Positions 46,235-61,195 of a DNA stretch of 64,000 bases are shown here, piece after piece. The DNA is from Flavobacterium psychrotrophum (GTDB taxonomy: Bacteria; Bacteroidota; Bacteroidia; Flavobacteriales; Flavobacteriaceae). The number at the start of each line of letters is the position of its first letter. Positions within the stretch are counted from its first letter, which is position 1. A model generated the notes under the pieces. It was given only the letters and a program-made list of their open reading frames with translations. It searched no databases and was not told where the DNA came from. The DNA is taken from contig NZ_CP031557.1 in the NCBI RefSeq assembly GCF_003403075.1, positions 2,480,001 to 2,544,000 on the forward strand. The letters run 5' to 3'. Position numbers and translations under genes: made by a program.

Positions 46235-46250
46235 GATCATTCGGGAATCG

Positions 46251-46416: not shown

Positions 46417-46444
46417 AAAAAATGCCCGGACATTTAGTCCGGGC
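46417..46444 (-). terminator. Terminator of the type B/PorP/OmpA unit
   Basis: A perfect 8-bp stem (GCCCGGAC, 46424-46431, with GTCCGGGC, 46437-46444) is followed on the minus strand by a T-run from A residues 46417-46422. It lies just after the OmpA gene stop, so the giant adhesin gene is a separate unit. Confidence 0.85.
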
Positions 46445-46452
46445 TGTATATA

Positions 46453-48321
46453 CTACTGCTTCACGATAAGGAATTCACTCCTTCTGTTTTGTGCGTGCTC
46501 TTCCTGTGTGCATGCTGTGCACTTAACTTTAGGCTCGCTCTCGCCATAGCCTTTGCCTGAGATACGCTCTTTAGCAATGCCTTTTGAGATGATGTACTGT
46601 ACCGTACTCTTTGCCCTGCGGTTAGACAGGCTCATGTTGTACTGGTCACTGCCGCGGCTGTCGGTATGAGACTTAACCAATACCACAAGGGCCGGGTTGT
46701 TTTTCATCGCGGCTACCGCCTTGTCAAGCTCAAAGGCTGCTTCTTTGGTGATGTTACTCTTGTCGTATTCAAAGAATATTTCATTAAGCACGATCTCTGT
46801 TGGTTTTACGATCGTTTCGATCGGGTCAAGGTTAGCATTTACCGTTACCTCTCCGCCTGCGGTCTTGGCTACCGGGAAGGTGTTGTTTACATAACCTTCT
46901 GCACTGGCCTGTACGGTATATGGCCTGTCACAGTCGATGTTGTAGTTTACCTGCCCTTTATTGTCTGCCGTGCGGGTTTCGATAACATTGCCTTTTTCAT
47001 CTACTATAGCCACTTTGGCTGCTGCAATGGCTTTGCCTGTTTTTGAGTCCCTGACCATTACAATGGCTTCTACACCACATACCGGGGTAGCAAGGTAGAT
47101 CTTGTCAAAGCCGTCACGGTTACTTGAGAAGAAACCGATCTTTTTGGTATCGTTAAACGTAAAGGCGAAGTCGTCCTTTCCGGTGTTGATTGGCTGGCCT
47201 ACGTTTTGTGCCTCGGTGCCTTTTTTAAGGTCAATCACATAAACGTCTAATGCGCCAAAGCCTTTCCTGCCATCGGTTGAGAAGTATAGCTTGTCACTAT
47301 CGGTGATGTAAGGGAAGCTTTCCCTGCCTTCGGTGTTTACCTTTGGCCCAAGGTTCTGTGGCTCGCCATAGCTGTTGTTGCCCTTGATCTCTACTTTCCA
47401 GATGTCGTTGCTGCCACCCATCGAGCCTTCACGGTCCGATGCGAAGTACAGCCATTTACCGTCTTTGCTTACTGATGGGTTGCCTGTACTCCAGGTCTTG
47501 CCGTTAAATGGCAGTTCCTCGATGTTGCCCCACTTGCCGTTGACTTTTGTGGCTTTGTACAGGTATACCTGACCTTGCTTGCTGTTGCTTTCCTTGTCTT
47601 TTACATATTGTTTCTTTTCTTTAAAGCTCTCGCTTGAAAAGTACAATGTGTTGCCCTCAGGGCTTACCGAAGCAGGGCCGTCATGCCATTTACTGTTCAC
47701 ATCGCTTACCGGGGTGGGTTCGCTGATCGTACCGTTGGCATTATAGGTAGCCTGGTACAAATCAAGGAACGGCTCATCGTTGGCTCCATAGGTTTTCCTT
47801 GCCGTGTTCCTTGCGCTGGTAAAGTACAGGGTGTTGTCATTGGTCAGTACCGCGCCAAAGCTGCCGTATTTCTTGTCGTTGATGTCCAGTACCTTTTCAT
47901 CAAAAAGTTTGGCCTGGTTGCGGAGCTTAGGCAGGTAGTTTGGGTCTTGTTTAAAGGTTACCGCCCTTTGGTCGTTTGGTGCCAGTTGTGCAAACTTCTG
48001 CATCTGTACGTTGCTTTCCTCATACTTGCCTTCTGCTTTAAGCATCTGTGCATATTTGTAGTACGTCTCGGCATCCTGGGGCGTTTTGGTGGCTTCTGCA
48101 AACCATTTTACCGCTTCCTTGCTGTTGAACATATTGTAGTAGCTTTCGGCAAGTTGCTTTGCTACATAGTTGTCTTTCTTTTTTACTTTTAGGTAGGCTT
48201 GCGCCGCGTCTACATACTCAAGCCTCGCAAATAGTTTGTCGGCAGCCTTCGTTTCTTCGCTCTGCGCCATCGCCGAACCAGCTATAAGCAGAAAGCCAAG
48301 GGTAAGATATAAATTTTTCAT
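46453..48321 (-). CDS. OmpA-family protein with TPR and propeller (PorE-like)
   Basis: The 622-residue protein has a signal peptide (to about residue 19), TPR helices (about 25-150), a PD40/WD40-type propeller (about 155-400, with YFTSARNTARK, YFSSESF, YFASDREGS and YFSTDGRKGF strands), a carboxypeptidase-regulatory fold (about 415-490) and a C-terminal OmpA domain (about 510-622, FFEYDKSNITKEA and NRRAKSTVQYI). This order is that of PorE of Porphyromonas, which links the T9SS to peptidoglycan through its OmpA domain. It starts 21 bases after the PorP/SprF gene and is probably the periplasmic partner of that channel. The base composition is G+C-rich compared with many neighbours. Confidence 0.85.
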   Translation of the reverse strand: MKNLYLTLGFLLIAGSAMAQSEETKAADKLFARLEYVDAAQAYLKVKKKDNYVAKQLAESYYNMFNSKEAVKWFAEATKTPQDAETYYKYAQMLKAEGKYEESNVQMQKFAQLAPNDQRAVTFKQDPNYLPKLRNQAKLFDEKVLDINDKKYGSFGAVLTNDNTLYFTSARNTARKTYGANDEPFLDLYQATYNANGTISEPTPVSDVNSKWHDGPASVSPEGNTLYFSSESFKEKKQYVKDKESNSKQGQVYLYKATKVNGKWGNIEELPFNGKTWSTGNPSVSKDGKWLYFASDREGSMGGSNDIWKVEIKGNNSYGEPQNLGPKVNTEGRESFPYITDSDKLYFSTDGRKGFGALDVYVIDLKKGTEAQNVGQPINTGKDDFAFTFNDTKKIGFFSSNRDGFDKIYLATPVCGVEAIVMVRDSKTGKAIAAAKVAIVDEKGNVIETRTADNKGQVNYNIDCDRPYTVQASAEGYVNNTFPVAKTAGGEVTVNANLDPIETIVKPTEIVLNEIFFEYDKSNITKEAAFELDKAVAAMKNNPALVVLVKSHTDSRGSDQYNMSLSNRRAKSTVQYIISKGIAKERISGKGYGESEPKVKCTACTQEEHAQNRRSEFLIVKQ

Positions 48322-48342: not shown

Positions 48343-49281
48343 TTAGAAATAACGTGGTGAACGTGATACTTTTTTCGGGAAGTTGACATCAAACAACAGC
48401 ATGATCTCGTGTGAGGCAGGTGTGGTTACCTTCAGGTCGGATACGATGTGGTCGTATGCATAGCCAATCCTCAGGTTCGGTGTGATGGCATAGTTTACCA
48501 TACCACCCCATGAATCGTCTAACCTGTAAGTGGCTCCGATCTCAAATTTCTCGAAGAACAGCGCGTTTAGTGAACCGTCGATAGACGGGTCTACACCAAA
48601 GGCTGATTTTACCATGAACGAGGGCTTCAGCTTGAAGTTGTCGGTTACCTGGAATACGTAACCTCCTGTTAAAAAGTAGTGCGATACTTCTGAACCAAAA
48701 CGGTAGTCGGTACCGCTTTGGGTAAGGTCAAGGTGTTTGCTCTTTAGCATGTTGGGTACCGAAAACGCTAAGTAGTAGTTATCGGTGTAGTAGAACACTC
48801 CTGTTCCTATGTTAAAGTAGGTGTTGTTTACGTTTTCTGCAAATGCAGGGTCATTAGGGTCCGGTACAAAGCCGTTGCCAATATCGCTGAACAATCCTAC
48901 TTTATGGAAGGTAGCGCCCGCCTTTAAGCCAAGGGCAAGCCTGTGCGCGCCACCAAGTTTCAGCGTGTAGCTGAAATCGGCATATACATTGGTTTCATTC
49001 ACCGGACCGATCTTATCGGTGATCGCCGATAAGCCCAATCCTACATTTTTGCCCACAGGGCTGTGGCCCGAAAACGTGCCCGTACTCGGGGCTCCGTCTA
49101 CATCTACCCATTGCTTGCGGTATAAAAGCCCAAAGGCTAAATTCTCCTTGCTGCCAGCGTATGCAGGGTTGATTACGTTCATGTTGTACATGTACTGTGT
49201 GTAGTGTGGGTCCTGCTGTGCGACTGCATCCGTAAACCCTACAAAGGCCAGTAATGCCGCCAGGTATAGTTTCTTTGTCAT
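48343..49281 (-). CDS. PorP/SprF family type IX secretion outer-membrane protein
   Basis: The 312-residue protein has a signal peptide (ending AVAQQ near 22) and the family opening QDPHYTQYMYNMNVINPAYA. The YRKQWV, GPVNETN and NLRIGYAYD boxes follow, and the rest alternates strands of an outer-membrane barrel. In Flavobacterium johnsoniae, SprF is needed for export of the type B adhesin SprB. Here the gene sits directly after a type B substrate gene, with a 29-base gap, and before a PorE-like gene, so I infer it serves that substrate and perhaps the giant one. Confidence 0.92.
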   Translation of the reverse strand: MTKKLYLAALLAFVGFTDAVAQQDPHYTQYMYNMNVINPAYAGSKENLAFGLLYRKQWVDVDGAPSTGTFSGHSPVGKNVGLGLSAITDKIGPVNETNVYADFSYTLKLGGAHRLALGLKAGATFHKVGLFSDIGNGFVPDPNDPAFAENVNNTYFNIGTGVFYYTDNYYLAFSVPNMLKSKHLDLTQSGTDYRFGSEVSHYFLTGGYVFQVTDNFKLKPSFMVKSAFGVDPSIDGSLNALFFEKFEIGATYRLDDSWGGMVNYAITPNLRIGYAYDHIVSDLKVTTPASHEIMLLFDVNFPKKVSRSPRYF

Positions 49282-49310: not shown

Positions 49311-52300
49311 TTAATTTTGCCTGTTGATGTAGATCCATCCTGTTTTGCTCTCGCCATTGTTGCGCTCAAACATATAGAAGTACGTTCCTGTTGGCAGTTC
49401 GTCGCCATTACTGCCCTGTCCGCCCCACTGATTGGTGTAGCTGCCTTTAAAGCTGTAAACCTCAAGCCCGTAACGGTTATAGATACTGATTTTTCTTACA
49501 TCAAGGTACGCAAGATCAAAATTGTCATTCTGCCCTATCGTTCCGCCCGGAGAGATACCACGCTGAATCTCGCAGTTGCCTGTAGTAAGTGCTAATTCCT
49601 CTACAGTAGTACAACCGGCAGCATTTTCTGCACGCACATATACTATACCTGTAGTTGTAGTAAGTAGGTAAGAAGCCGGTGTAGCAATGGCATTGTTATT
49701 AGCAAGGGCATCTGCCTGAGTGGCAAAATATCCTAGTGTAACACCTGTGCCTGCCTGCGCAGCTACTTCAGTAAGATTAAACGGAGAACAACCGGTAAGT
49801 TCTAACGCCGCAGCAAATTGTGGAGCCGGCAAAACATTAAGAATAAAAGATGTTGTTGTATAGCATCCACCATTACCTACCCTGACATAGATAGTTTGTG
49901 GGTTGGCCGTATTATTATAACTACCCGGTGTAGTAATAGCACCAGTATTGTTATCTGCATTGCTCTGGCTTGTAAAATACGTAACGGTATCTGTAGAACC
50001 GGCAGGTAATATAAGCGCATCGCGGCTTGAAAGATTAAATGCAGCTACTCCTGTAGTTACTTCGCAAAGCTGGTAATCAGCAATCGTATTTGCAACCGGA
50101 AGCGGATTTACAATTAGAGCCAGGCTTGCAACACTGTAACATCCTGCCGCTGTTTGCACCCTTACCCAAATAGTAGCCGTACCACTAGTATATGTAGCAG
50201 GTGTAGCTACAGGAGTAGTGCCTGCATTAGCAGCAGCCTCTGTATCATAGTATGAAACCGTTAAGCCCGCTACACCATTGGTAGCTTCTGCATCTTTAGA
50301 GTTAAGGTTAAATACTGCCTGAACTCCTGTGGTTGCAGGATCATCGCAAAGTACATAATTTGTTAAACCCGGCGTTGCAGGAAGCGGATTTACCTGCAGG
50401 TTAAGGGTTGCAAGGCTGTAACATCCTGCTGCCGATTGTACCCTTACCCAAACAGTACCTCCGGCACTTTGATAAGCAGAAGTTCCTGTTATTGGCCTGG
50501 TGCCATCATTAGCTTCTGTTTCTCCGGTATAATAAGAAACCGTTAAGCCCGCTACTCCATTAGCAGCCTGTGCATCTTTAGTTGTAAGGTTAAATACTGC
50601 CTGTACCCCTGTTGTTGCAGGATCGTCGCACAGTGCATAGGTAGTCATTACAGGCACCACAGGTTTAGGGTTTACTGTAAGCACAATAGTTTTTATGGTA
50701 TAACAGTTTGTTGTAGTGCCGTTTTCTATAGCCCTGATATAAACTGTTTGTGTATTTGGTGTTATCGTTGAGTATGCCGCAGGTGTGGTTATAGCAGCTG
50801 TTCCTGCTTCGGCATCTGTTAATGATGTGTGGTAGGTTAGCGTGATGCCTGTCTGCCCGTTAAGGGTGTTGTTACCTTCTGCTTCCAGATTAAATACAGC
50901 AAGCCCGTCATAATCATCATCACATAAAGCTAGTGAAGACGGTTCAAGCAGCACAGGTGCGCTGTTAATAAGTATCGTTACTGTAGTATCATCGCCTGTA
51001 ATACAATTTGTAACATCTGTAGTAACTTCATATTTAACATTATAAGTTCCCGGTGTACTTGTAGCAAGGTCTATTTCTCCTGTTGCAGCATTAATTGCTA
51101 AACCTGTAGCAGGTGTTACGGTAAATGCACCTCCTTCGGTAAAGCCTGCGTCTTTAGTTGGTACTACATTAGCAGCGCCCGCACAAACAGCAGCAGGAAG
51201 TGTAAAGCCTGTAACGGCAGTAGTAGGAGTGTTAATTGTTACCGTAATGGTAGCATCCAGACTTTGGCATCCCTCAGGAGAAGTCTGATAAACATTAAAA
51301 GTAGCAGTACCTATAGCAGACGTTAATGGAGTTGGTGCACCCGGCAGTTGTATGCCGTTGCTGTCTACCCATGTAAGTGTGTAACCGGTAAGTGCAGTAG
51401 CCGTTAAAGGTGCAGCTATTTGTCCCTGGCAATATGCAATATCTGTAACAACCGGTATAGCAGGTACAGCACCGGTATATGTTATAGTTACTGTTTTAAA
51501 ACAGCTTGCACTACCCCAATTATATGTATAAACACCCGGTGTAGAGAAACCAGAAATTAGTGTGCTGTTTGCTGTAGGGTTAGCAATAACTGTGGCAGAT
51601 GGGTTGGCACTATCTGCCGTCCAGGTACCAAGACCTGTAGAAGTAACTGTTGTAGTTGATGTATTACAGCCAATAGTTACCGCGTTTGATACTACGTGCT
51701 CTGATCCATAAGTAAAGTAATAACCGGTAGGAATATTTACATTTTTGTACAATATAGTTCCGGTATCGTCAAGAGGATAAGTAGTGATATCTCCCGCAGG
51801 AAAGGTTGGGTCTGATGATACGACAAGGTATCTTACATCTGCAGGCAATTGTGATTTTGCTGCTGCAATAGTAACATCTGCAATACCACCCGTTTTCTGA
51901 ACTTTCCATGTGCGTGCAATGCGGTTAACACAGTTACCCTGCACCGTTGCATTACCAAGACCGTTATCTGCCGTTATAAAATAAGAAGCCGTAGCATCTA
52001 TAGCTGTTGTGTTTAATGCATTTGTTACAGGAAATGTACCCGCAGTATTTTTGTTATAAACCGTAATCAGGTTATTGTTGTGTATTGATTTAGACTGCTT
52101 TTGGTAAAGGCCAGAAACATCGTCCCTGCCTATACCGGTAACATTAAATTTAAATGTATTATCTGCTGTCCAGAAAACGCTGCCATCCGGCGCGGTATAG
52201 TTTCTGTTGGTTGAAGATTGCCCAGAAGTGAGAGTAACTCCATATTTTACAGCAAGATATGATTCTACCTTGTTAACATCTGCATCAGAAAGGTTTACAT

Positions 52301-53114
52301 CAAAGGTAATTACCTCAGCAATGGCTCCGTTAAATATTTCATTTCCATTATTACTGCCCAGGAAGAACCCTGATGAAACAGCAGGATCATAAACACTGTC
52401 AAAGTTATTGGTAACACTTGCTGTATCACCATTTCTGTTAGCACTAAAAGTATTAGATGTTGAATTGGTATTAACACCCTTACCCATCAGGATTATACCT
52501 GCGGTTTCAGGATAGTTAGTCATACCAACACCTCCCGGAAACGGAGCATCGTTATAATAATCTCCTGTACTACCGGCAAAACCGTCTCCGGTTTGTGTCC
52601 TGAAGCCCGGCTTAAACTGCCATTTGTTTTGTGAAAACAAATAAGTAAGTGCCGTATTTTTTGGAGTAATATTTGTATAAGTATTAACTACCAAAAATAT
52701 AGAACCCTGGGTATTTAAAAGATCTGTTGTGAAACTTGTATTTGTAAGCAATGTATTATTACTGCCTGAAAATTGCATGAACGGGTTAAAGTTAAAGTTT
52801 GCACTTGCTGTATTGCCCGTAGTATATACCGGCATACGTGTGGTATTAGACTGTACCAGTGCATAAGACCCTGAGGTGGTGCCACCACTACTCATCCATG
52901 AAGTAACACGGTTATCTGTTGTGTTATTTAACAAAATAGGATTTGTATTAGCTGTACCTGCATTACTGGTAGACCTGAACCAACCTGTAAGGCCGCCACT
53001 AACCCCACCCGGAGCCTGTGCAAAAACAGTTGTGCCACCCAGCAGAGAAATAACTACAAAAGCCCTGACAGGCTTTAATATGAAAGATGTTAATAAATGA
53101 TATTTTTTGCTCAT
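49311..53114 (-). CDS. T9SS type B surface protein with five repeats
   Basis: The 1267-residue protein has a 33-residue signal peptide (MSKKYHLLTS...TTVFAQ) and a long N-terminal part (to about 720) very similar to that of the giant protein at 38786-46234. Five repeats (about 721-1185) follow with LCDDxxxTG-FNLxxKDA and GCYS-L-L-VNPLP patterns, three of them nearly identical to each other. The C-terminal 80 residues are a type B sorting domain (RKISIYNRYGLEVYSF, DELPTGTYFYMFE, KTGWIYINRQ). The usual PNGDGxND box is changed to PGGTIGQNDNFDL. It is the first gene of the unit with PorP/SprF and the PorE-like protein. A candidate HTCS site lies 196 bases upstream. Confidence 0.88.
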   Translation of the reverse strand: MSKKYHLLTSFILKPVRAFVVISLLGGTTVFAQAPGGVSGGLTGWFRSTSNAGTANTNPILLNNTTDNRVTSWMSSGGTTSGSYALVQSNTTRMPVYTTGNTASANFNFNPFMQFSGSNNTLLTNTSFTTDLLNTQGSIFLVVNTYTNITPKNTALTYLFSQNKWQFKPGFRTQTGDGFAGSTGDYYNDAPFPGGVGMTNYPETAGIILMGKGVNTNSTSNTFSANRNGDTASVTNNFDSVYDPAVSSGFFLGSNNGNEIFNGAIAEVITFDVNLSDADVNKVESYLAVKYGVTLTSGQSSTNRNYTAPDGSVFWTADNTFKFNVTGIGRDDVSGLYQKQSKSIHNNNLITVYNKNTAGTFPVTNALNTTAIDATASYFITADNGLGNATVQGNCVNRIARTWKVQKTGGIADVTIAAAKSQLPADVRYLVVSSDPTFPAGDITTYPLDDTGTILYKNVNIPTGYYFTYGSEHVVSNAVTIGCNTSTTTVTSTGLGTWTADSANPSATVIANPTANSTLISGFSTPGVYTYNWGSASCFKTVTITYTGAVPAIPVVTDIAYCQGQIAAPLTATALTGYTLTWVDSNGIQLPGAPTPLTSAIGTATFNVYQTSPEGCQSLDATITVTINTPTTAVTGFTLPAAVCAGAANVVPTKDAGFTEGGAFTVTPATGLAINAATGEIDLATSTPGTYNVKYEVTTDVTNCITGDDTTVTILINSAPVLLEPSSLALCDDDYDGLAVFNLEAEGNNTLNGQTGITLTYHTSLTDAEAGTAAITTPAAYSTITPNTQTVYIRAIENGTTTNCYTIKTIVLTVNPKPVVPVMTTYALCDDPATTGVQAVFNLTTKDAQAANGVAGLTVSYYTGETEANDGTRPITGTSAYQSAGGTVWVRVQSAAGCYSLATLNLQVNPLPATPGLTNYVLCDDPATTGVQAVFNLNSKDAEATNGVAGLTVSYYDTEAAANAGTTPVATPATYTSGTATIWVRVQTAAGCYSVASLALIVNPLPVANTIADYQLCEVTTGVAAFNLSSRDALILPAGSTDTVTYFTSQSNADNNTGAITTPGSYNNTANPQTIYVRVGNGGCYTTTSFILNVLPAPQFAAALELTGCSPFNLTEVAAQAGTGVTLGYFATQADALANNNAIATPASYLLTTTTGIVYVRAENAAGCTTVEELALTTGNCEIQRGISPGGTIGQNDNFDLAYLDVRKISIYNRYGLEVYSFKGSYTNQWGGQGSNGDELPTGTYFYMFERNNGESKTGWIYINRQN

Positions 53115-53309
53115 TATAATTGGTTTATATAATTTAATTTGTAGGTAAACTGAGTTGTTTTTTTGTCTTAAATCTTAGCCGTTTTTTGCATTAGGAATAC
53201 AGTTTAAAACTGTTATTTTTAAACAGTCTAAATATAAAAAACAAAGATTGTAAGATATTACTGTTTAACATAAAAAAATCAACAAATAAATATGACAGTT
53301 CCTTAAACC

Positions 53310-53373
53310 GTAAACTTCTTGTTTTTAGGCAAAAAGGGCTTTCAGTATTGTTTCAAACAATTGTACTATTGTT
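53310..53373 (-). promoter_or_regulatory. Direct-repeat site shared with the PNGase gene (copy 1)
   Basis: On the minus strand AACAATAGT (53373-53365) and AACAATACT (53352-53344) start exactly 21 bases apart. AAGAAGTTTAC (53320-53310) begins 32 bases after the second copy. The same arrangement, with identical distances, occurs at 56798-56861. A 21-base period (two helical turns) is typical of sites for AraC-type output domains, such as the hybrid regulator encoded nearby. Confidence 0.7.
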
Positions 53374-53461
53374 TTATTGACCAAATTTTATTTTAAAGAC
53401 GGCCTTATAAAGCTTCTATTTGAAGCAAAATTTTTGTTGTAATAGTTCAAAAAATAAAGAA

Positions 53462-53492
53462 AAGCCGTGATGCCTTTTGGGCAACACAGCTT
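53462..53492 (-). terminator. Terminator of the Ig-like gene
   Basis: An imperfect stem (53462-53474 with 53480-53492, two mismatches or wobbles) closes a 5-base loop. A T-rich stretch follows on the minus strand (A-rich 53445-53463 on the plus strand). Confidence 0.55.
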
Positions 53493-53514
53493 CTCTGCCT
53501 AAAATCAATAAACT

Positions 53515-55332
53515 TTAATTTTTAACTATTTTGGCAACTTGCACATTGCCGTTTTCAAACTCAGCTTTCAGCATATAAATACCGCTGCTAAGTAAACCCA
53601 TATGTAGTGTAGGCTGTAACGACCTTAGCACTTCTTTGCCCAGGCTATCATAAACAGAAACTACTTTTATAATTGACTGTGATTTAATTTGAACCATATC
53701 TGTTGCAGGGTTAGGGTATACTGCAATTGCATTTTTACCAAAACTTTCAACTGCCGATACCGGGATGTTTACGGTAATGTTAATACTTGTAGATAGTGTA
53801 GCTCCGCTCGCAGATGTTGCAGTAACAACGGCTGTACCATTTGCAACAGCAGTTACAAGGCCATTTTCATCTACGGTTACAATACCTACCGGTGTAGCAG
53901 TCCATACAACATCTGTATCTGTAGCATTTTCAGGAAGTATTGTTGCAACAAGCTGCAATGTACCACCAGCGGTAACAATTGTTGGCTCCGCATTGTTTTC
54001 TACAGTTACAGTAATACTTGTAACCACAACTACCTGACCTGTAATAACCACATCAATCGTATCTGTAAAAGATCCGTCTTCTGTAGTAACAGTAACGGTA
54101 ATTGTACCGTTAGCCAATGCCCTGATTAATCCGTCTTCGCTTATCGTAGCAAAATCACTGCCTGCACTAATAGCCCATGTAACATCTGCATTACTTGCAT
54201 CATCCGGAGTAACAGTAGCCACAAGCTGTAGTGTACCACCATCTGTAGTTATTGTTGCCGGTGCATCATCTGCCACAGCTACATCAACTGCTGTTACAGC
54301 AATTACCTGATTAGAAATAACAACTTCAATATCATCATAAATTGTAGTATCACTTGTAAGCGTTGCGCGTACTGTTACAGCACCATTAGCCAGAGCTGTT
54401 ACCAGGCCTGTAGCACTTATAGTTGCAAACTCGCTTCCTTCTGCAATAGTCCAGGTTACAGTCTCTGTAGCCGGTGTTACTGCTGCGGTAAGTTGTAGCG
54501 TACCTCCATCTGTAGTTATGGTAGCCGCAACATCTCCCTGCACCGCTACTGCAACTGTAGATGGTAATGCCGGTGATGCTGTTGCAGAAACAGCAAGCAC
54601 TGAAAGACGTATCTCACTTGCCCATTCTGCCGAAGATGACCCTTCAAAACTAAAGGCAATACCGGTTATGGTTTTATACTGATTACCTGCATCAAGCGGC
54701 AGAGCTACCTCATAAAGCCTTGGGTTTGTAGCGCTGCCTTCAAGGTTGTTGTTAGCAGTATTAATACGCCCTATACCTTGTATAGCATAACCGTCGCCAT
54801 CATACCAGTCGCTGATTGTAAGTGTTGAAGCCTGTGTAGTGCCATCTGCAAAATTTACCGTAGCAGAAAACGACTGGTACTGGTTACCGCCGCCTGTAGC
54901 ACCTGCCAAAAGGTAAAGGGTACTAACGTTTGATTTACTGAATGCTAGGGTTCCTGTAGACGTTGCTCCATTACCCACATAAGCCGGTGTTAGGAACAGG
55001 GCATTATTGCCACTGTAATCTGCTAGCTGAAAATTAACGCCAATTGAATTTGCACTATTGATCAATCCGTTAACCGGCAGTCCGTATGTGGGTGTTGAGC
55101 CAGATGTTGTAGCCTGAAAATCCAGGGAAACAAGCGCTCGTGTATTATGCTGATCAAAGCCCATGGTTGTAGAAGCCGAAGCATTGCCTACACCATTTGC
55201 TATAATATCCTGATTAAAACCTGATGTGATGGTAACAGGTGTAGCTGTTTGCGCAAAAGATATTGCCGGGCTAAGCGACAAAAAGCCGAAAGCGATTGCA
55301 TACCTAAATGGATAAAGTAGTTTTCTTTTCAT
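53515..55332 (-). CDS. T9SS type A protein with three Ig-like group 2 domains
   Basis: The 605-residue protein has a signal peptide (ending AISFAQ, about 28) and an N-terminal beta-rich part (about 29-215). Three group 2 Ig-like (BIG2) domains follow, each with a ITTDGGTLQL start and ATISxxGLVxALANGxxTVT centre (about 265-520). The C-terminal 70 residues are a type A sorting domain (IAVYPNPATDMVQIKS, then SSGIYMLKAEF and KIVKN). It begins 26 bases after the PNGase gene and is probably co-expressed with it. Its Ig-like domain recurs in the divergent gene at 61196. Binding of a carbohydrate or surface partner is inferred. Confidence 0.87.
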   Translation of the reverse strand: MKRKLLYPFRYAIAFGFLSLSPAISFAQTATPVTITSGFNQDIIANGVGNASASTTMGFDQHNTRALVSLDFQATTSGSTPTYGLPVNGLINSANSIGVNFQLADYSGNNALFLTPAYVGNGATSTGTLAFSKSNVSTLYLLAGATGGGNQYQSFSATVNFADGTTQASTLTISDWYDGDGYAIQGIGRINTANNNLEGSATNPRLYEVALPLDAGNQYKTITGIAFSFEGSSSAEWASEIRLSVLAVSATASPALPSTVAVAVQGDVAATITTDGGTLQLTAAVTPATETVTWTIAEGSEFATISATGLVTALANGAVTVRATLTSDTTIYDDIEVVISNQVIAVTAVDVAVADDAPATITTDGGTLQLVATVTPDDASNADVTWAISAGSDFATISEDGLIRALANGTITVTVTTEDGSFTDTIDVVITGQVVVVTSITVTVENNAEPTIVTAGGTLQLVATILPENATDTDVVWTATPVGIVTVDENGLVTAVANGTAVVTATSASGATLSTSINITVNIPVSAVESFGKNAIAVYPNPATDMVQIKSQSIIKVVSVYDSLGKEVLRSLQPTLHMGLLSSGIYMLKAEFENGNVQVAKIVKN

Positions 55333-55358
55333 AAACCGTCATGTATTAGTGTTAATTA

Positions 55359-56765
55359 TTAGCTCTTTATAACTTTTTTCACAACCACCTCATCGTTAGA
55401 AAAAAGTATTTTAACAATATACATACCGCTTTTAAGGGCAGACATATCAACGTTATTTGATGTACCTTTAGACACAACCTGACCCGTAATGGAAACAACA
55501 GTAAATTCTTTTACTTCTTGATTTACCGCGTTTATAACAGCTGTGTTTAAAACAGGGTTAGGATATAGAGAAACACTTTCTGCACTAAAAGTATCTGTAG
55601 AAAGTACCGTATCATAACTTTGAAGATATACCGACATTGGTATCATACCATCGTTTCCGTTAAAGGTAGCATCCGGCACATCGATCTTGAAACTGTGTGC
55701 ACCGGCAGAAAGGTTACCCAGGCTAATTTCCCTGATAGGAATTGAATTACCGGGACACCAGTTGTTCCAGCTCCATGCAGCATCTGTATTTGCCAGAGGC
55801 GCTCCTGTATTACAGTTATTATAAATACAATTTCCCTGAGTATTATACCTGCGGTAAGGTCCACAAGATACACCCCCCGGCTTATAAGTAAGCACCTGCA
55901 CACCATCTACATATACAAAGTGCTGCCTCCTTACATATTCTTCACCACCGCTGCCTGCACCATGGCTTGATGTTATAAGGTACAGTTTTGCATTTGGCAA
56001 AGCCTCATCAAGTGTAAAATTTATGGTACGCACCGTTTCATTAAGCACATCTGTACCAGAAAGGTTATAATCGCGCATTTCATATTTAAATGATAGTGGC
56101 TTTAAAAAATTATTGCTGTAGTTTACCGATGCATCAGTTTCTGAAACAAACTCAAGCGTGCCAAAAAATACATCGTTTCTGCCAGAGCATCCTGCCACCT
56201 GGGTGTTTGCAGCATAAGGAACACCAAAAAGTTCAAGTTCTACCCAAAGGTCAAATTCTGATGTAAGCTGTGTATCCTTAAATATCTGAGCTACGTTATC
56301 TATTTCATAAGTATATGGTACCTCATCCGGCTGTACATTCTTGTTCATAAACGGAGTAATGTACCTGCCTAGTTCCAGGCGTTGCACTTCTGAAGGGTTG
56401 TAAGATGTAGCATCTTTAGGTACAAGCGCCAGGTTAATGTTACCTATCCTGTCATAATTATCACATGATGCTTTTATGGTAACGTTCATGGTAAGCTTGT
56501 TGCCAAACTGTGCCAGTTGTTCTGCCGTAAGCTTTTTAGCATATAATGAATTGCTGTGCCTTATAACACCATCCGGCACCGGCTCTGATACGTTAGCTGC
56601 ATAGCCATCATAAAACAGTATCTGGTCAAATACTGTAAGTATATATGGGTCTTGTGCAATAGCTTTATTTGAGAAGAGAAAAAACAAGCACAAGCCGGCA
56701 AAAAAGGCCTGCCTGTGCTTTTGAAAATAACCAGAGAGATTCTTAATAGTAGTAGTTTTGTTCAT
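55359..56765 (-). CDS. PNGase F-like secreted protein with T9SS type A sorting domain
   Basis: The 468-residue protein has a long signal peptide (to about residue 38, NKAIAQ) and two beta-rich domains like those of peptide-N-glycosidase F of Elizabethkingia, which cuts asparagine-linked glycans from glycoproteins. The CDEWDR box of PNGase F appears as CDNYDR with Asp105. The sheet Glu118 of PNGase F aligns with Glu176 (LWVELEL), and Glu206 with Glu276 (GGEEYVRRQH), so the catalytic set looks kept. The NWCPG-PIREISL region near 335-350 is also shared. A type A sorting domain (about 395-468, SLYPNPVLNTAVI) directs it through the T9SS. It follows the hybrid regulator gene by 99 bases, which hold a candidate regulator site. 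Confidence 0.82.
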   Translation of the reverse strand: MNKTTTIKNLSGYFQKHRQAFFAGLCLFFLFSNKAIAQDPYILTVFDQILFYDGYAANVSEPVPDGVIRHSNSLYAKKLTAEQLAQFGNKLTMNVTIKASCDNYDRIGNINLALVPKDATSYNPSEVQRLELGRYITPFMNKNVQPDEVPYTYEIDNVAQIFKDTQLTSEFDLWVELELFGVPYAANTQVAGCSGRNDVFFGTLEFVSETDASVNYSNNFLKPLSFKYEMRDYNLSGTDVLNETVRTINFTLDEALPNAKLYLITSSHGAGSGGEEYVRRQHFVYVDGVQVLTYKPGGVSCGPYRRYNTQGNCIYNNCNTGAPLANTDAAWSWNNWCPGNSIPIREISLGNLSAGAHSFKIDVPDATFNGNDGMIPMSVYLQSYDTVLSTDTFSAESVSLYPNPVLNTAVINAVNQEVKEFTVVSITGQVVSKGTSNNVDMSALKSGMYIVKILFSNDEVVVKKVIKS

Positions 56766-56797
56766 TAGGTAAGAGTTTCGCGTTTAATAATAATGCT

Positions 56798-56861
56798 GTA
56801 AACTTCTTATTTTAAGCCTAATGACGATTGTACTATTGTTTCAAAACCTGTAACTATTGTT
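56798..56861 (-). promoter_or_regulatory. Direct-repeat site upstream of the PNGase gene (copy 2)
   Basis: On the minus strand AACAATAGT occurs at 56861-56853 and again at 56840-56832, exactly 21 bases apart. AAGAAGTTTAC (56808-56798) begins 32 bases after the second copy. It ends 33 bases before the ATG at 56765, between the regulator gene and the PNGase gene. The copy at 53310-53373 has the same layout. Confidence 0.75.
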
Positions 56862-56864
56862 ACA

Positions 56865-59800
56865 TTATACTGCTGTTTTTAAGAAATCGCTTGGTGTTAT
56901 ACCATAAACCTCCTTAAAACTACGGGTAAAGTAAGATGGGCTTGCAAAACCGGTTTTATAAGCCACCTCAGCTACCGTAAAATTCTCTTTAAGCAACGGT
57001 AAAGCTTTACTCAGGCGATAAGCCCTGAGCATTTCACTGGTGCTCATTCCGGTAATACTTTTAATTTTACGATGCAGGCTTGTCCTGCTTATAAGGAGCA
57101 CTGCAGAGAGCTCTTCTACCCCAAAATTATCATTGTCGATATTCTCGTCTACTGCTTCGTATATTTTAAGCAGGAACGGGTCTATCGGCTTACTTTCTAT
57201 AACCTCTTCTGCAGCCGGTAACGTAGTAAGCCCCCTGTAAATAGATTCGCGTAACAACTTTTGCTGCGCCAGCCTGTTACTTACCCGCATTAGTAGTTCT
57301 TCTACACTAAAAGGTTTTGTAAGATAATCATCTGCTCCATATGAAAGGCCTTCCAGCCTGCTCTCCATATCAGCTTTAGCGGTTAGCAAAAGTACAGGTA
57401 TATGACTTGTAGCAATATCAGCTTTTACAGCACGGCAAAATTCAAAACCATTCATTACGGGCATTAACACATCGCTAATTATAATTTCGGGCGAATGTTG
57501 CTGCGCAAGTGGTAATGCAGCAATGCCGTTTTCGGCAGCTACAACATTATAATGCGCATTTAATATGCTGTACATAAATGCTGCAAGCTCCTTATTATCT
57601 TCTACTACCAGTACTGTTGGCTTTTCAGTAGTGTGATCTTCAACAAACACAGCACCGGTATTTTGGGCTGCTTCTCCTGCAATAGTTGTAGTAAGTTCTT
57701 TTAACGGCAGGAATATTTCAAATACCGCGCCCGTTGTATGTAGAGAATTAGTCGACACATTAATAGTACCGTCCTGAAGTGTGATTAGTTCTTTAACTAA
57801 AGAAAGGCCTATTCCGCTGCCAGTTGCCAACCTGTTTTCTGCACTATTACCTCTGTAGAACCTATTAAAAATATTTAGTATATCTTCTTTTGTAACTCCC
57901 GGGCCATTATCTGAAACACTTAAGATTATACCGTTAGGCACTATATCAAGCTTAACAACAATACTGCCGCCTTGCGGGCTGAAACGTATAGCGTTAGACA
58001 AGAGGTTAAAAAGTATCCTTTCCATCATTTCTGCATCAAAAAGATAACCTGCATTTTCTGGTATTTCCTGCGTAATAACAATATCTTTTGAATTAGCTTC
58101 CTGCGAAAACGCCGCTACAACTTTGCGCATAACCTGCGTAAGATCACCAGCCGAAAAATGCGGTTTTAACGCTCCGGCTTCCAGCTTAGACATATCCAGG
58201 AGCTGATTGGTAAGATTTAAAAGGCTTGTGGCATTTTTAGTAATAATTTCTGCCATTTTGCCCTGCTCTGTTTCAAAAAGCCTGGTTTTAAGTTCCTGTG
58301 CGGGGCCAAGTATAAGGGTTAACGGTGTGCGCAACTCATGCGTAATGTTCGAAAAGAAGCGGGTTTTCATATCATCAAGTTCCCTAAGATGCAGGGCTTC
58401 TTTTTGTTTGAGCACAATTTCTTCCTTCATTACACGCTGCCTGATCCTGAAGTTAGTAAACAGCAATACAGATACCGCAAATAATATAAGATAAACTATC
58501 CATGCGCCGGTAGTATTCCACCAGGGTGGCGAAACTGTAACCGGTAACGATTTTATGTATGAGCTCCACTTACCCGTAGTGTTAGTAGCATTAACTTCAA
58601 AAACATATTTACCCGGCGGAATTTTAGTATAAACAGCATCTCTTTTATTTGCTGCGGCTACCCACTTATTGTCATATCCTTTAAGGCGGTAGCGGTACTT
58701 AATATCTGTAGGATGATTAAATTGCAGTGCTGCATATTCTATACGCAGGGTATTATCATTATAAGGCAGGCTTAAATTTGTAACCAGAGGTAAGGCGCTG
58801 GCATAAGCCGTACCTTCAATTGCCTGGTTATTAATAAAGATATCTGTTAGCTCTACATTTGGGTTAAAATTATCGTCTTTAATTTCCTGCGGATTAAAAA
58901 TCACATACCCGTTTATACCGCCAAAGGCAAGCTTACCATCGGGCAACGGTATTTGATGAAAACGGTTAAACTCATTATTAGGCAAACCGTAAGAAACCGT
59001 AAAAGTGCGGCTTTTGTGTGAAACAGGATCAAAACGCACCAGGCCCTTATTAGTACCCAGCCAGAGATACCCAGCCGCATCCGGCAACATAGAATATACA
59101 ACATTATCCGGTAAGCCCTGCTTTACAGAAAACACGTTTGTTTTAAAGGTAGTTTTATTAAAGCACAGTAAACCTTGCGGGCTGCCTATCCATATAAGGT
59201 TATTACCGGCAGGATCTGGAAGCATATTATAAAGGCTTCTTGCCGAAAATACTTTGCCCTCTTTATCATTTACTTTATGCAGTGTTTTGCTTTTTAGGTC
59301 AATGTAAAATAAACCATCATACTCTGTTGCCACCCAAAGGCGGGTTTTATCTAAAAGTATACTGCTTGGGGCTACGGTTTTTAAACTATAATTGCCTGCC
59401 GTTTTAAAAGGAGTACTTAGCTGCCATACTCCTGAACTCTGCAAAGTATAAAGACTACCACAATCGTCCATTACCATAGGCATTCCGTTTGCCATAAGCA
59501 CCAAACCTTTTACCGGCACAAACTTTTTATTTGCTGCCGGCAGCTCAAAACCTGTTACTTTTTTTTGCCTGATATCATAGCGGTAGAGAGCCCTGTCTAA
59601 TGCTATCCAGATGTTATTAGCATCTTTAACAGTACGCAAATAATAACTAAGGGGCAAAGTACCCTTATATGAATTTTTATGCGCCAGGTATGCAACCGGA
59701 AAATTGAACGCTCTTGTCAGCACATCTGTTATAAAATCCTTCTCGTACCTATGTGAATCAAAATCTGTAGCAAGGTCAATCTGGGTGATGCCATCTGTGT

Positions 59801-60770
59801 TTCCGCCTGTCCAGATAAGCCCTGACCTGTCTACAAGGAAAGCCTGTATGTTTCGAAAATCTTCTAACCCGTCTTTAGCATATTTTTTAAGTCCGTTATT
59901 ATCATCATAGCTATAAACATTATTTCCTGCTATAAAATACTCTTTTCCATCAGGGCCAATGTTTATCCATTTAACGCTGTATTCTGTAACTTCGGGTAGA
60001 CTTATCTTGCGAAACCTGTGACTTTTTGGTTCAAAAAAGAAAATATTTTTAAGGTCTGTCCACATCAATTCGCCGTTAGCTCTTTTGTGTAGCTCAGGAA
60101 TATCGTCGCCATAGTCAAGGTTATCGTTAAAGTACTGCTTGCACTGCAACGGATAATCAATAAACCTGCTACTGCCCTTTATTAAACGGCTTAGTGCATT
60201 TTGCCTCAATACCCATAAATCTTTTTTCCCGTCTATAAAAAGGCTCCTTATGGTATCGCCCTGAAAAGAATAGGTTCGCTTTTCTTTTATTTTTCCGTTA
60301 TGCTGATATTTAAAACTCTTTACGGTTCCACCTTTCCCCAGGTACCATATAACATTATCATCTGCAATGCTCCAGCCACGGCGTATTATAAATAACTTTT
60401 CTTTTTCTGAAATATCCTGTGTAATGATATGGGACACTTTTGCAGAGTCTATACTAAGCCTGTCTAATTCTCCCGTTTCATACTTAAGCCAAAGCGAATT
60501 TCCGGGGCCGGGTTGCAAATGGGTTATGGCATTAGATGCAAGCGAATTTTTATCTGAAAGGTCATGCTGAAATATCCTGAAGTTATGGCCATCATAGCGC
60601 GCTAATCCATTTCTGGTTGCAATCCATATAAATCCCTGCTTGTCCTGGTGCAAGCCCGAGATAAACGACTGCGGAAGGCCTTCATTTTCAGAAAGCCGCC
60701 TTGTATTTTGCGCATATAAAAATAATGGCAAAAATAATATATAGAGTACAGACTGTAATTTCAGTCTCAT
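56865..60770 (-). CDS. Hybrid two-component system regulator (HTCS)
   Basis: The 1301-residue protein combines sensor, kinase, receiver and output. A signal peptide is followed by Reg_prop propeller repeats (to about 680, such as GFIWIATRNGLARYDG, and YLWLGTNKGLVRFDP) and a Y_Y_Y domain (about 685-745). Then come a membrane span (about 753-775), a histidine kinase with His811 in ITHELRTPL, an ATPase domain (N box near 923, GSGIGLSLV near 985), a receiver with Asp1100 in IIISDVLMPVMNG and a C-terminal AraC-type helix-turn-helix (about 1200-1300). Such proteins sense a periplasmic glycan fragment and switch on a neighbouring utilisation cluster in Bacteroidota. The next gene downstream is the PNGase-like gene. 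Confidence 0.95.
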   Translation of the reverse strand: MRLKLQSVLYILFLPLFLYAQNTRRLSENEGLPQSFISGLHQDKQGFIWIATRNGLARYDGHNFRIFQHDLSDKNSLASNAITHLQPGPGNSLWLKYETGELDRLSIDSAKVSHIITQDISEKEKLFIIRRGWSIADDNVIWYLGKGGTVKSFKYQHNGKIKEKRTYSFQGDTIRSLFIDGKKDLWVLRQNALSRLIKGSSRFIDYPLQCKQYFNDNLDYGDDIPELHKRANGELMWTDLKNIFFFEPKSHRFRKISLPEVTEYSVKWINIGPDGKEYFIAGNNVYSYDDNNGLKKYAKDGLEDFRNIQAFLVDRSGLIWTGGNTDGITQIDLATDFDSHRYEKDFITDVLTRAFNFPVAYLAHKNSYKGTLPLSYYLRTVKDANNIWIALDRALYRYDIRQKKVTGFELPAANKKFVPVKGLVLMANGMPMVMDDCGSLYTLQSSGVWQLSTPFKTAGNYSLKTVAPSSILLDKTRLWVATEYDGLFYIDLKSKTLHKVNDKEGKVFSARSLYNMLPDPAGNNLIWIGSPQGLLCFNKTTFKTNVFSVKQGLPDNVVYSMLPDAAGYLWLGTNKGLVRFDPVSHKSRTFTVSYGLPNNEFNRFHQIPLPDGKLAFGGINGYVIFNPQEIKDDNFNPNVELTDIFINNQAIEGTAYASALPLVTNLSLPYNDNTLRIEYAALQFNHPTDIKYRYRLKGYDNKWVAAANKRDAVYTKIPPGKYVFEVNATNTTGKWSSYIKSLPVTVSPPWWNTTGAWIVYLILFAVSVLLFTNFRIRQRVMKEEIVLKQKEALHLRELDDMKTRFFSNITHELRTPLTLILGPAQELKTRLFETEQGKMAEIITKNATSLLNLTNQLLDMSKLEAGALKPHFSAGDLTQVMRKVVAAFSQEANSKDIVITQEIPENAGYLFDAEMMERILFNLLSNAIRFSPQGGSIVVKLDIVPNGIILSVSDNGPGVTKEDILNIFNRFYRGNSAENRLATGSGIGLSLVKELITLQDGTINVSTNSLHTTGAVFEIFLPLKELTTTIAGEAAQNTGAVFVEDHTTEKPTVLVVEDNKELAAFMYSILNAHYNVVAAENGIAALPLAQQHSPEIIISDVLMPVMNGFEFCRAVKADIATSHIPVLLLTAKADMESRLEGLSYGADDYLTKPFSVEELLMRVSNRLAQQKLLRESIYRGLTTLPAAEEVIESKPIDPFLLKIYEAVDENIDNDNFGVEELSAVLLISRTSLHRKIKSITGMSTSEMLRAYRLSKALPLLKENFTVAEVAYKTGFASPSYFTRSFKEVYGITPSDFLKTAV

Positions 60771-61195
60771 TGCTGCTGGAATTTATTGGTCAATAATGGT
60801 CATGATTAAAAAAATATGACGCCTTCAGTTGATGCCAATGTACACTGATTTGCCCCTATTATGCAAATTTCACTTATTTTTTAACAAAACTCACAAATTT
60901 TACAAATAAAACTATTAAGTATCCATCAAAATTAGAAAATATACTGACTGAGGATATCAAAGTCCATTGGTGTAATTTTTAAAATCAACATAGCACCTTA
61001 ACAATAGCAGTACATCTTAAAATACATAACAATATGTTTAAATTTTTCACACATGCAAATGTTTTTGTTATGAAAATTAATCAGTTTCTATTTTTTTTCA
61101 AAACCTATTGGGTAATATGTAAAAATTAATTGAATTTATTTTTATTTAATCTAAATAAATAATTTTACCAAATATACTTATAACCTTTCATAACA
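60771..61195. other. Divergent intergenic region
   Basis: This 425-base A+T-rich region separates the regulator gene (minus) from a large secreted-protein gene (plus). No gene is seen. Two AACAATA words on the plus strand (61000-61007 and 61028-61035) resemble the half-sites of the 53310 and 56798 modules, but they are 28 bases apart and have no AAGAAGTTTAC, so they are uncertain. Nothing else clear stands out. Confidence 0.45.

Follow-up and report, generated by a model that had tools for sequence, protein, structure and literature searches.

Direct-repeat operators of HTCS regulators with a spacing of ~21 bp are already known: the predicted HTCS motifs of Bacteroides are tandem direct repeats with a mean spacing of 21 bp (PMC3878776), and an S/CHIP motif marks the HTCS receiver (PMC11253607). 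Type-B, PorP and PorE-like genes are grouped in five operons of Flavobacterium johnsoniae (PMC9143113, PMC12618676). The stretch of the Flavobacterium psychrotrophum genome analyzed here (the window, 64,000 nucleotides) contains an HTCS gene and two units, a type-B/PorP/PorE-like unit (unit A) and a PNGase F-like gene followed by a second T9SS-tailed gene, gene 2 (unit B). Ahead of the putative regulated genes of each is a direct repeat with ~21 bp between tandem sites, the operator spacing of HTCS regulators.

Table 1. Features of the HTCS locus, in window coordinates.
Feature	Position	Strand	Evidence or remark
Terminator-like hairpin ending the type-B/PorP/PorE-like operon	46424..46444	-	Consensus scan
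PorE-like PD40/OmpA protein	46453..48321	-	Pfam
PorP/SprF family outer-membrane protein, predicted shuttle/anchor for the type-B protein	48343..49281	-	PF11751 and TIGR03519, both over cut-off
Surface protein with Ig-like repeats and type-B tail, 1267 aa; putative adhesin	49311..53114	-	CHU_C over cut-off
Unit A predicted -7-like box (GAAGTTTA)	53311..53318	-	Identical to that of unit B, same offset
Unit A half-site 2 (GAAACAATACTGAAA)	53340..53354	-	21 bp from unit A half-site 1
Unit A half-site 1 (AAAACAATAGTACAA)	53361..53375	-	
Likely terminator downstream of gene 2: strong hairpin and U-rich tail	53458..53496	-	-24 kcal/mol, z -5.0
Gene 2, 605 aa: ~215-aa core domain, Big_2 repeats, T9SS type-A tail	53515..55332	-	Pfam
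PNGase F-like enzyme with T9SS type-A tail, 468 aa	55359..56765	-	PF09112, PF09113, PF18962 over cut-off
Unit B predicted -7-like box (GAAGTTTA)	56799..56806	-	Inside AAGAAGTTTAC; 4/6 against TAnnTTTG
Unit B half-site 2 (GAAACAATAGTACAA)	56828..56842	-	21 bp from unit B half-site 1
Unit B half-site 1 (GTAACAATAGTTACA)	56849..56863	-	Begins right after the HTCS stop codon
HTCS, proposed regulator, 1301 aa	56865..60770	-	Reg_prop propellers, Y_Y_Y, HisKA, HATPase, receiver, AraC-type HTH (Pfam, all over cut-off)

The elements that define an HTCS, namely sensor propeller, HisKA, HATPase, receiver and AraC HTH, all lie in the one chain of the proposed regulator. It has both phospho-acceptors, H811 and D1100, and the receiver sequence SHIP at 1122; H811, D1100 and HIP are invariant in nine aligned sequences, and the S of SHIP is variable. 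Both N-glycanase domains of the predicted PNGase score over cut-off (N-glycanase_N 59.2 bits, N-glycanase_C 107.6 bits), and YDR at residues 104-106, by our own assignment the PNGase motif, is invariant in 9/9 aligned sequences. The core domain of gene 2 recurs beside HTCS genes of the same clade; the hairpin following gene 2 is absent from the list of the consensus terminator scan. In unit A, the candidate type-B C-terminal domain scores 55.4 with PF13585 (CHU_C, cut-off 27) and 28.3 with TIGR04131 (cut-off 35), and a structure model of the protein has an Ig-like stalk, its best matches being GhpA fragments. It is predicted to be a static, cell-wall-anchored surface protein. The PorP/SprF protein passes TIGR03519 (255.5, cut-off 90.55). 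Pfam agrees with the gene calls of the original prediction for the HTCS, the PNGase F-like enzyme, PorP/SprF and the CHU_C (type-B) tail; PorE falls short, at 360 bits against an NCBIfam cut-off of 600 for NF052230, and is called PorE-like only.

The module in front of each unit comprises two AACAATA repeats and AAGAAGTTTAC. On the minus strand, the repeats of unit A start at 53373 and 53352 and AAGAAGTTTAC at 53320; the corresponding minus-strand starts in unit B are 56861, 56840 and 56808. The two modules with shared spacing that had been described for this DNA are thus borne out, with 21 bases from repeat to repeat and 32 from the second repeat to AAGAAGTTTAC in both. The half-site cores are GAAACAATA and the half-site consensus is tTGaAACaatatTtAnA. 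A search of the whole 4,843,008-base genome with the pattern proposed in the original prediction returns two exact matches, units A and B, and none when the pattern is read backwards. A relaxed search adds to these two copies a third target, site C (genome 272172-272235, minus strand, two mismatches to the pattern), which is 2.26 Mb from the window copies and 69 bases upstream of a gene for a T9SS-tailed GEVED/Big_2 protein. Allowing up to three mismatches, a repeat-only pattern matches A, B, C and no other site genome-wide, and its reversed control matches nothing. A fourth match, at 4259498 with three mismatches, is without the TTTGAAAC part and absent from the repeat-only search, and was dropped. 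Over the 64 bases of the module, identity is 46/64 for A/B, 44/64 for A/C and 48/64 for B/C. Identity between the flanks of A and B is low by comparison (14/40 before the module, 8/36 after it), which rules out a recent segmental duplication.

AAGAAGTTTAC, at its fixed distance, more plausibly contains a predicted -7-like box than an additional operator. The sigma-A -7 consensus is TAnnTTTG (PMC9723704), which the boxes in F. psychrotrophum match at 4/6 bases only. Among 25 hand-anchored aligned sites, the box at offset 36 from half-site 2 is the sole best in 11 and joint best in 13, hence best or joint best in 24/25.

The link between the repeat and this HTCS clade emerged only from reading the bases past the stop codons of orthologous HTCS genes. 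The 64-base module with its AAGAAGTTTAC anchor has no match in 119 other genomes, because relatives differ in the -7 region (e.g. GAGGTTTAC), and a related-locus search with the HTCS protein as single query gave no match. A 35-letter pattern with three mismatches gives 16 matches in seven genomes against 10 in reversed controls; nine, at sites B and C or adjacent to HTCS genes, were kept, and seven three-mismatch matches were dropped as being at chance level. The clade is small within the genus, at 7/398 genomes (two candidates per genome were scored, and further paralogues may be missed), and the PNGase gene directly follows an HTCS of the clade in five of the seven. In relatives with 46-48% HTCS identity, the repeat lies in the gap separating the HTCS stop from the PNGase start. 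When the sequence past the HTCS stop is matched against itself, a shift of 21 bases ranks first, alone or tied, in 23/33 clade loci against 1/23 other HTCSs (Fisher p 1e-6; the loci are not phylogenetically independent). This automatic count includes L118 and L126, with repeats of other letters than the module's, as well as G177b, where a sequence other than the module gives the top window, and it misses G234 and L109, both with the module. Reading and hand anchoring likewise place a site after the stop in 23/33, the ten clade loci without one being L108, L110, L112, L118, L119, L120, L121, L124, L126 and L127. The 33-locus test took 24 of 79 related loci; L099, L101, L106 and L113 (G-genomes already in the test) and L141 (the same as G234) were left out as duplicates. 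Also left out were L114 (cut), L122 (HTCS divided between two ORFs) and the remainder of L129-L177 (more distant).

Gene arrangements vary among the relatives. In F. beibuense, the repeat letters differ by paralogue group with the spacing kept, GAAACAATAGTTA beside group a and GAGACGAGATTG beside group b. Winogradskyella marincola has copies before its PNGase gene (weak), a T9SS protein gene and a lectin-typeB/PorP/PorE-like unit; with its own row left out of the matrix, these score 19.1 (weak), 38.2 and 21.5. A third operon gene with a type-B tail (local model) is present in 3/3 relatives whose operon could be followed as far as a third gene. The coupling of glycan release to adhesin display put forward in the original prediction is supported, but in relatives whose PNGase operon is complete, a single operon of PNGase, gene 2 and type-B protein provides it, in place of several promoters. 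Four Chryseobacterium genomes and that of F. jejuense have one site each. The HTCS of F. plurextorum lies just after a type-B/PorP/PorE-like unit with no module before that unit (best matrix score -11.6); in this species and F. oncorhynchi, the nearest ORF past the post-HTCS module (above length cut-offs) is 191 aa and lies ~555-560 bp on. The genes downstream of matrix matches in Terrimonas and a MAG (TPR, DUF4136) carry no T9SS tail, and the clade is therefore not always the controller of this gene set.

That a single HTCS would control units A and B through the common module, as had been proposed, is well supported by comparison, through the association of the repeat with the clade and the W. 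marincola layout. It is quite unlikely that the module is bound by some other regulator of the genome, such as a different HTCS or an AraC protein, and that the adjacency of this HTCS is incidental. The genome does encode at least seven further AraC-type output domains, the nearest paralogue found being 43% identical to the HTCS DNA-binding domain (90 bits), and site C is ~26 kb from the start of another HTCS gene. However, the nearest module-bearing relative reaches 139 bits and 54% identity, and the output domains of the own-genome paralogues score below all 28 clade members compared. The repeat also follows the clade HTCS stop codon in many species, varies in letters with the paralogue group at constant spacing, and a best 21-bp shift occurs in just one of the 23 non-clade HTCSs.

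Two further alternatives draw on the score of unit A, the lowest of the three sites in a matrix built without the own-genome (G000) sites (B 38.9, A 23.7, C 44.0); apart from A, B and C, no position in the window and L005 scores above 0 with this matrix. The HTCS might control unit B alone, with unit A a degenerate or unused copy and no true coupling in F. psychrotrophum, an unlikely arrangement. Half-site 2 of unit A diverges past AACAATA, and by arithmetic from the predicted -7 boxes, which would put transcription starts near 53306 in unit A and 56794 in unit B, its leader would be ~190 nt against 29 nt for PNGase, but unit A retains both cores, the 21-bp phase and the same -7-like box at the same offset, it is positioned after a terminator-like hairpin and ahead of a three-gene operon, and the equivalent unit of W. 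marincola is preceded by a copy. A chance or promoter-composition effect is extremely improbable, even though the half-sites are AT-rich like the surrounding intergenic DNA and the unit A score is near the best control score, 19.1. That maximum comes from a scan of control loci (102 locus ids, 1,181,743 bases) with L141, a clade member (43.2), and L130, a stretch of clade contig (36.8, 23.7, 12.9, 10.4), set aside after their scores were seen. Against chance, base composition predicts about 5e-9 to 4e-8 exact matches in the whole genome, below 1e-7, the reversed controls are empty, and unit A scores 22.8-27.1 with a 20-row matrix and 6.1-10.3 with a 6-row matrix, compared to at most 5.9 and 3.3, respectively, in random 64-kb sequences (30 per set-up).

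The module is thus likely an HTCS-dependent promoter with three target units. Once phosphorylated, the HTCS would occupy the two half-sites through paired AraC-type output domains; at 21 bp apart, these half-sites would lie on the same helix face. The weak sigma-A -7-like box at its fixed distance would place the second half-site on the -33 region, so that the regulator would recruit RNA polymerase. By this route, the HTCS would turn on PNGase and gene 2, the type-B adhesin with the PorP and PorE-like proteins, and the distant GEVED/Big_2 surface protein at site C. Of this scheme, we observe the sequence, the spacing, the clade-specific conservation and the recurrence in Winogradskyella, and infer binding, promoter activity, activation, ligand and adhesion. 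The SusD (PF07980) marker of a polysaccharide utilisation locus is not close by, the nearest among the matches listed being at 2632583, ~92 kb from the HTCS. It is quite possible, and proposed tentatively, that this Flavobacteriales HTCS clade runs a T9SS 'cut and hold' glycoprotein apparatus, not SusC/SusD feeding. PNGase would strip N-glycans, and lectin-like proteins of both types, A and B (type B displayed via its own PorP/PorE-like partners), would hold the glycoprotein or its carrier cell. Glycan that is released or exposed would act as the inducer, and deglycosylation and adhesion would therefore amplify each other.

The content of the proposed regulon is new, as it combines PNGase with T9SS surface proteins of types A and B and with PorP/PorE-like partners, and has no SusD in its vicinity. 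Sequence alone here predicts which promoters among T9SS surface proteins a hybrid regulator controls, a level of control little described in the literature compared. To our knowledge, no glycan-sensing HTCS has been described as controller of a type-B/PorP/PorE unit. Proposing the type-B/PorP/PorE-like unit, PNGase and gene 2 as a single functional set brings together HTCS sensing, N-glycan release and type-B adhesin display, which usually belong to separate fields, and the defined operator and promoter geometry is directly testable.

The closest regulatory parallel is with the HTCS regulons of B. thetaiotaomicron (PMC3878776), which likewise combine a one-piece sensor kinase/receiver/AraC regulator with local operons and an occasional far target. 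Those regulons were picked for susC/susD linkage and serve polysaccharide uptake, whereas the F. psychrotrophum targets are T9SS-exported proteins including PNGase, and PorP/PorE-like partners. The enzyme resembles PNGaseL of Flavobacterium akiainvivens (PMC12381499) in its two-domain N-glycanase, aromatic-Asp-positive/aromatic motif and T9SS tail; most of the six PNGase genes in that study are orphans, unlike the F. psychrotrophum gene, which is in a conserved operon beside its presumed regulator. The Gpd complex of Capnocytophaga canimorsus (PMC3128124) is also a Bacteroidota surface apparatus that removes N-glycans from host glycoproteins, but it consists of outer-membrane-spanning Gpd proteins and a sialidase, and neither a T9SS type-B adhesin nor a PorP/PorE partner is named in the portion of that account drawn on here. 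Unit A groups type-B substrate, PorP/SprF and PorE-like genes as do SprB-SprF and PG1035-PorP-PorE (PMC9143113, PMC12618676). These reports treat secretion and anchoring ('transcription' and 'two-component' are not found in the text of PMC12618676), to which F. psychrotrophum adds a proposed HTCS control.

The module consists of two AACAATA-type half-sites 21 bp apart, followed 32 bases on by a third element, AAGAAGTTTAC, and stands before both the PNGase F-like unit (copy B) and the unit of type-B-tailed, PorP and PorE-like proteins (copy A). When re-measured, its spacings are exactly those of the original prediction, and the genome-wide search that the prediction had proposed returns 2 matches to the exact pattern and 0 to a reversed control. 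Allowing mismatches reveals a third copy (C) at genome positions 272172–272235, 2.26 Mb away and 69 nt 5' of the start of a 634-residue protein that ends in a T9SS type-A tail and contains a GEVED domain and four Big_2 stretches. The target of copy C has the Big_2/T9SS architecture in common with gene 2, the gene that follows the PNGase, but not the core domain of gene 2. Without the AAGAAGTTTAC anchor, the two-repeat pattern recovers exactly copies A, B and C genome-wide, with 0 control matches; all three copies thus precede T9SS-exported proteins. The module observation is exact and far exceeds chance.

Gene and module order in the window and in a Winogradskyella marincola locus (L111); the minus strand carries every gene concerned at the window locus
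Feature	Coordinates	Strand or direction	Remark
HTCS (hybrid regulator)	56865-60770	-	first in order, high to low coordinates
Module B		-	between HTCS and PNGase F-like gene, starting directly 3' of the HTCS stop codon
PNGase F-like enzyme	55359-56765	-	
Gene 2	53515-55332	-	
Strong terminator-like hairpin		-	between gene 2 and module A
Module A		-	between terminator-like hairpin and type-B gene
Type-B-tailed protein	49311-53114	-	
PorP/SprF	48343-49281	-	
PorE-like protein	46453-48321	-	
Terminator-like hairpin	46444-46424	-	3' of PorE-like gene
PNGase	L111 209-1804	all L111 genes in one direction	
T9SS-A protein	L111 2073-3995		two gene-2 core domains
HTCS	L111 4107-8069		
L-type lectin	L111 8152-10071		type-B tail
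PorP	L111 10100-11008		local model only
PorE-like protein	L111 11029-12933		

The predicted leader of the type-B gene (53115–53306, about 190 nt) has no more structure than its shuffles. The type-B protein itself contains Ig-like repeats, whose best structural matches are to GhpA, the grappling hook protein of Aureispira. Next after the PorE-like gene is a 2484-residue protein with an Ig_7 domain and a CHU_C (type-B) tail (38786–46240), which is probably a separate unit because a terminator-like hairpin separates the two. A further large surface protein of the window (34377–36959) is of the T9SS-A kind, has 860 residues and carries DUF7619 and SdrD_B domains. The gene divergent from the HTCS (61196 to position 2723 of locus L006) encodes another GEVED/Big_2/fn3 T9SS-A protein. 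No module lies 5' of it; the plus strand, which is the sense of this gene, has AACAATA at 61000 and 61028 only, a spacing of 28, not 21.

The window HTCS is a member of a clade with sharp limits. Among 398 Flavobacterium genomes, drawn from a larger group and scored for two candidates each, nine full-length sequences in 7 genomes, the window HTCS included, exceed 1100 bits, and the next match scores 569 bits. Its output domain scores 100–139 bits against all 28 clade members compared, and at most 90 bits (43% identity) against the paralogues found in its own genome. In F. beibuense, whose HTCS is 48% identical, TTGAAACAATTGTTACAGCATTTGAAACAATAGTTAT lies between the HTCS and PNGase genes in 21-bp phase and is followed by GTTTAC at the distance seen in the window module. 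Many other relatives carry comparable repeats 3' of the HTCS stop, with letters that vary by subgroup. In the 160 bases 3' of the stop, a shift of 21 is the best or joint best self-match in 23 of 33 clade loci (24 of the 33 from named loci) versus 1 of 23 non-clade HTCS loci (Fisher p 1e-6, related species being counted more than once and some individual loci needing caveats). By reading, 10 of the 33 have no site after the stop; matrix matches occur elsewhere in the locus in four of these (L110, L118, L121 and L127).

Twenty sites, all from other genomes and none from this one, went into a 68-column matrix, which scores B at 38.9, C at 44.0 and A at 23.7, and nothing else in the window or in the 20 kb around C scores above zero. 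Under two background settings, A reaches 22.8 and 27.1, and 30 random 64-kb sequences peak at 4.3 and 5.9; with a matrix made from 6 sites, all of Flavobacterium, A again ranks third (6.1 and 10.3; random maxima 3.3 and -4.1). The top score in 1.18 Mb of control loci is 19.1, with L141 and L130 set aside because they proved clade-related. Copy A is therefore the weakest of the three, yet clear.

F. beibuense, F. alkalisoli, F. salilacus and one further genome, G427, each have a single module ahead of PNGase, gene 2 and a large protein. The third ORF is complete in the last three and has a type-B tail by a local model in each, Pfam agreeing in the single case scanned; the F. beibuense ORF extends past the end of the stretch. 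These operons and the window thus have a common gene order of HTCS, PNGase, gene 2 and type-B protein, the window having a terminator and the second module between the last two. A second copy of the system in F. beibuense and F. alkalisoli comprises a LamG protein, another PNGase and L-type lectins, one lectin per species being type-B-tailed by the local model. Of the 33 clade loci, 10 have a PNGase gene in the flanking sequence retrieved, and PNGase-bearing genomes number 189 of 398 in the genus sample and 7 of 7 among those with a clade HTCS. The beta-rich gene-2 core (residues 35–249, roughly 215 residues), for which no significant Pfam match was found, occurs once or twice in the second gene of these loci, and it adjoins clade HTCSs in Flavobacterium, Winogradskyella, Mesonia and Mangrovimonas. 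A gene-2-core protein of Mesonia aquimarina (L115:14093-17326) also bears an FBA (F-box associated) domain. In eukaryotic F-box proteins this domain binds N-glycans, which may offer a hint of the ligand. In four Chryseobacterium loci the gene 3' of the module is T9SS-A-tailed, and all three that were scanned have LamG. No SusD gene is among the matches listed within 90 kb of the window HTCS; F. alkalisoli has one about 10 kb from its HTCS, on the far side of another HTCS gene.

The arrangement originally predicted, with modules before both units, is found independently in another genus, in the single species W. marincola. With that species' own row omitted from the matrix, the copy 5' of the PNGase (at 120) is weak at 19.1, equal to the best control level, and those 5' of the gene-2 homologue (1917) and of the lectin/PorP/PorE-like unit (8057) score 38.2 and 21.5. 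At the cut-off used, the HTCS is absent from 67 other Winogradskyella genomes, and as far as searched only the window genome and W. marincola have several copies near this gene set.

The sigma-A -7 box, TAnnTTTG (PMC9723704), was sought in 25 sites aligned by hand on the second half-site. Offset 36 gives the best match in 11 sites and ties for best in 13, with D. luticola matching at 37; in 22 less redundant sites the mean score at 36 is 4.55 of 6, versus 2.86 at the next best offset. The corresponding box in this genome, GAAGTTTA, agrees with 4 of 6 consensus bases. The third element thus most likely contains a weak -7 box. The consensus of 23 sites reads tTGaAACaatatTtAnAgtaTTTGaAACaanatTnAtA, about 20 variable bases and gAntTTTac. 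With such a -7 box, the module would be a promoter, with the second half-site covering its predicted -33 region.

Some loci do not fit. In F. plurextorum, a very long type-B-like gene, a PorP gene and a PorE-like gene lie directly 5' of the HTCS with no module upstream of them, and the F. oncorhynchi HTCS is likewise preceded by a PorE-like gene; in both, the nearest listed ORF past the module that follows the HTCS is 191 residues long and 555–560 bp away. In Terrimonas and a MAG, genes adjoining matrix matches have no T9SS tail by Pfam. Module-like matches also occur by clade HTCSs at L127:17861 and 17920 (a divergent pair), and in L110 and L130 (Terrimonas), and their neighbors are TPR or unknown genes. 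The clade seems to have switched targets in other Bacteroidota.

Control of both units by one HTCS, as originally proposed, is the best-supported reading of the sequences, and the third element has changed its meaning, to a -7-like box. Among the matches listed in the searches made, no earlier example was found of a regulon with such content. On the same reading, that content would be surface deglycosylation together with T9SS adhesin display, with no SusD gene nearby; the regulatory principle is already known.
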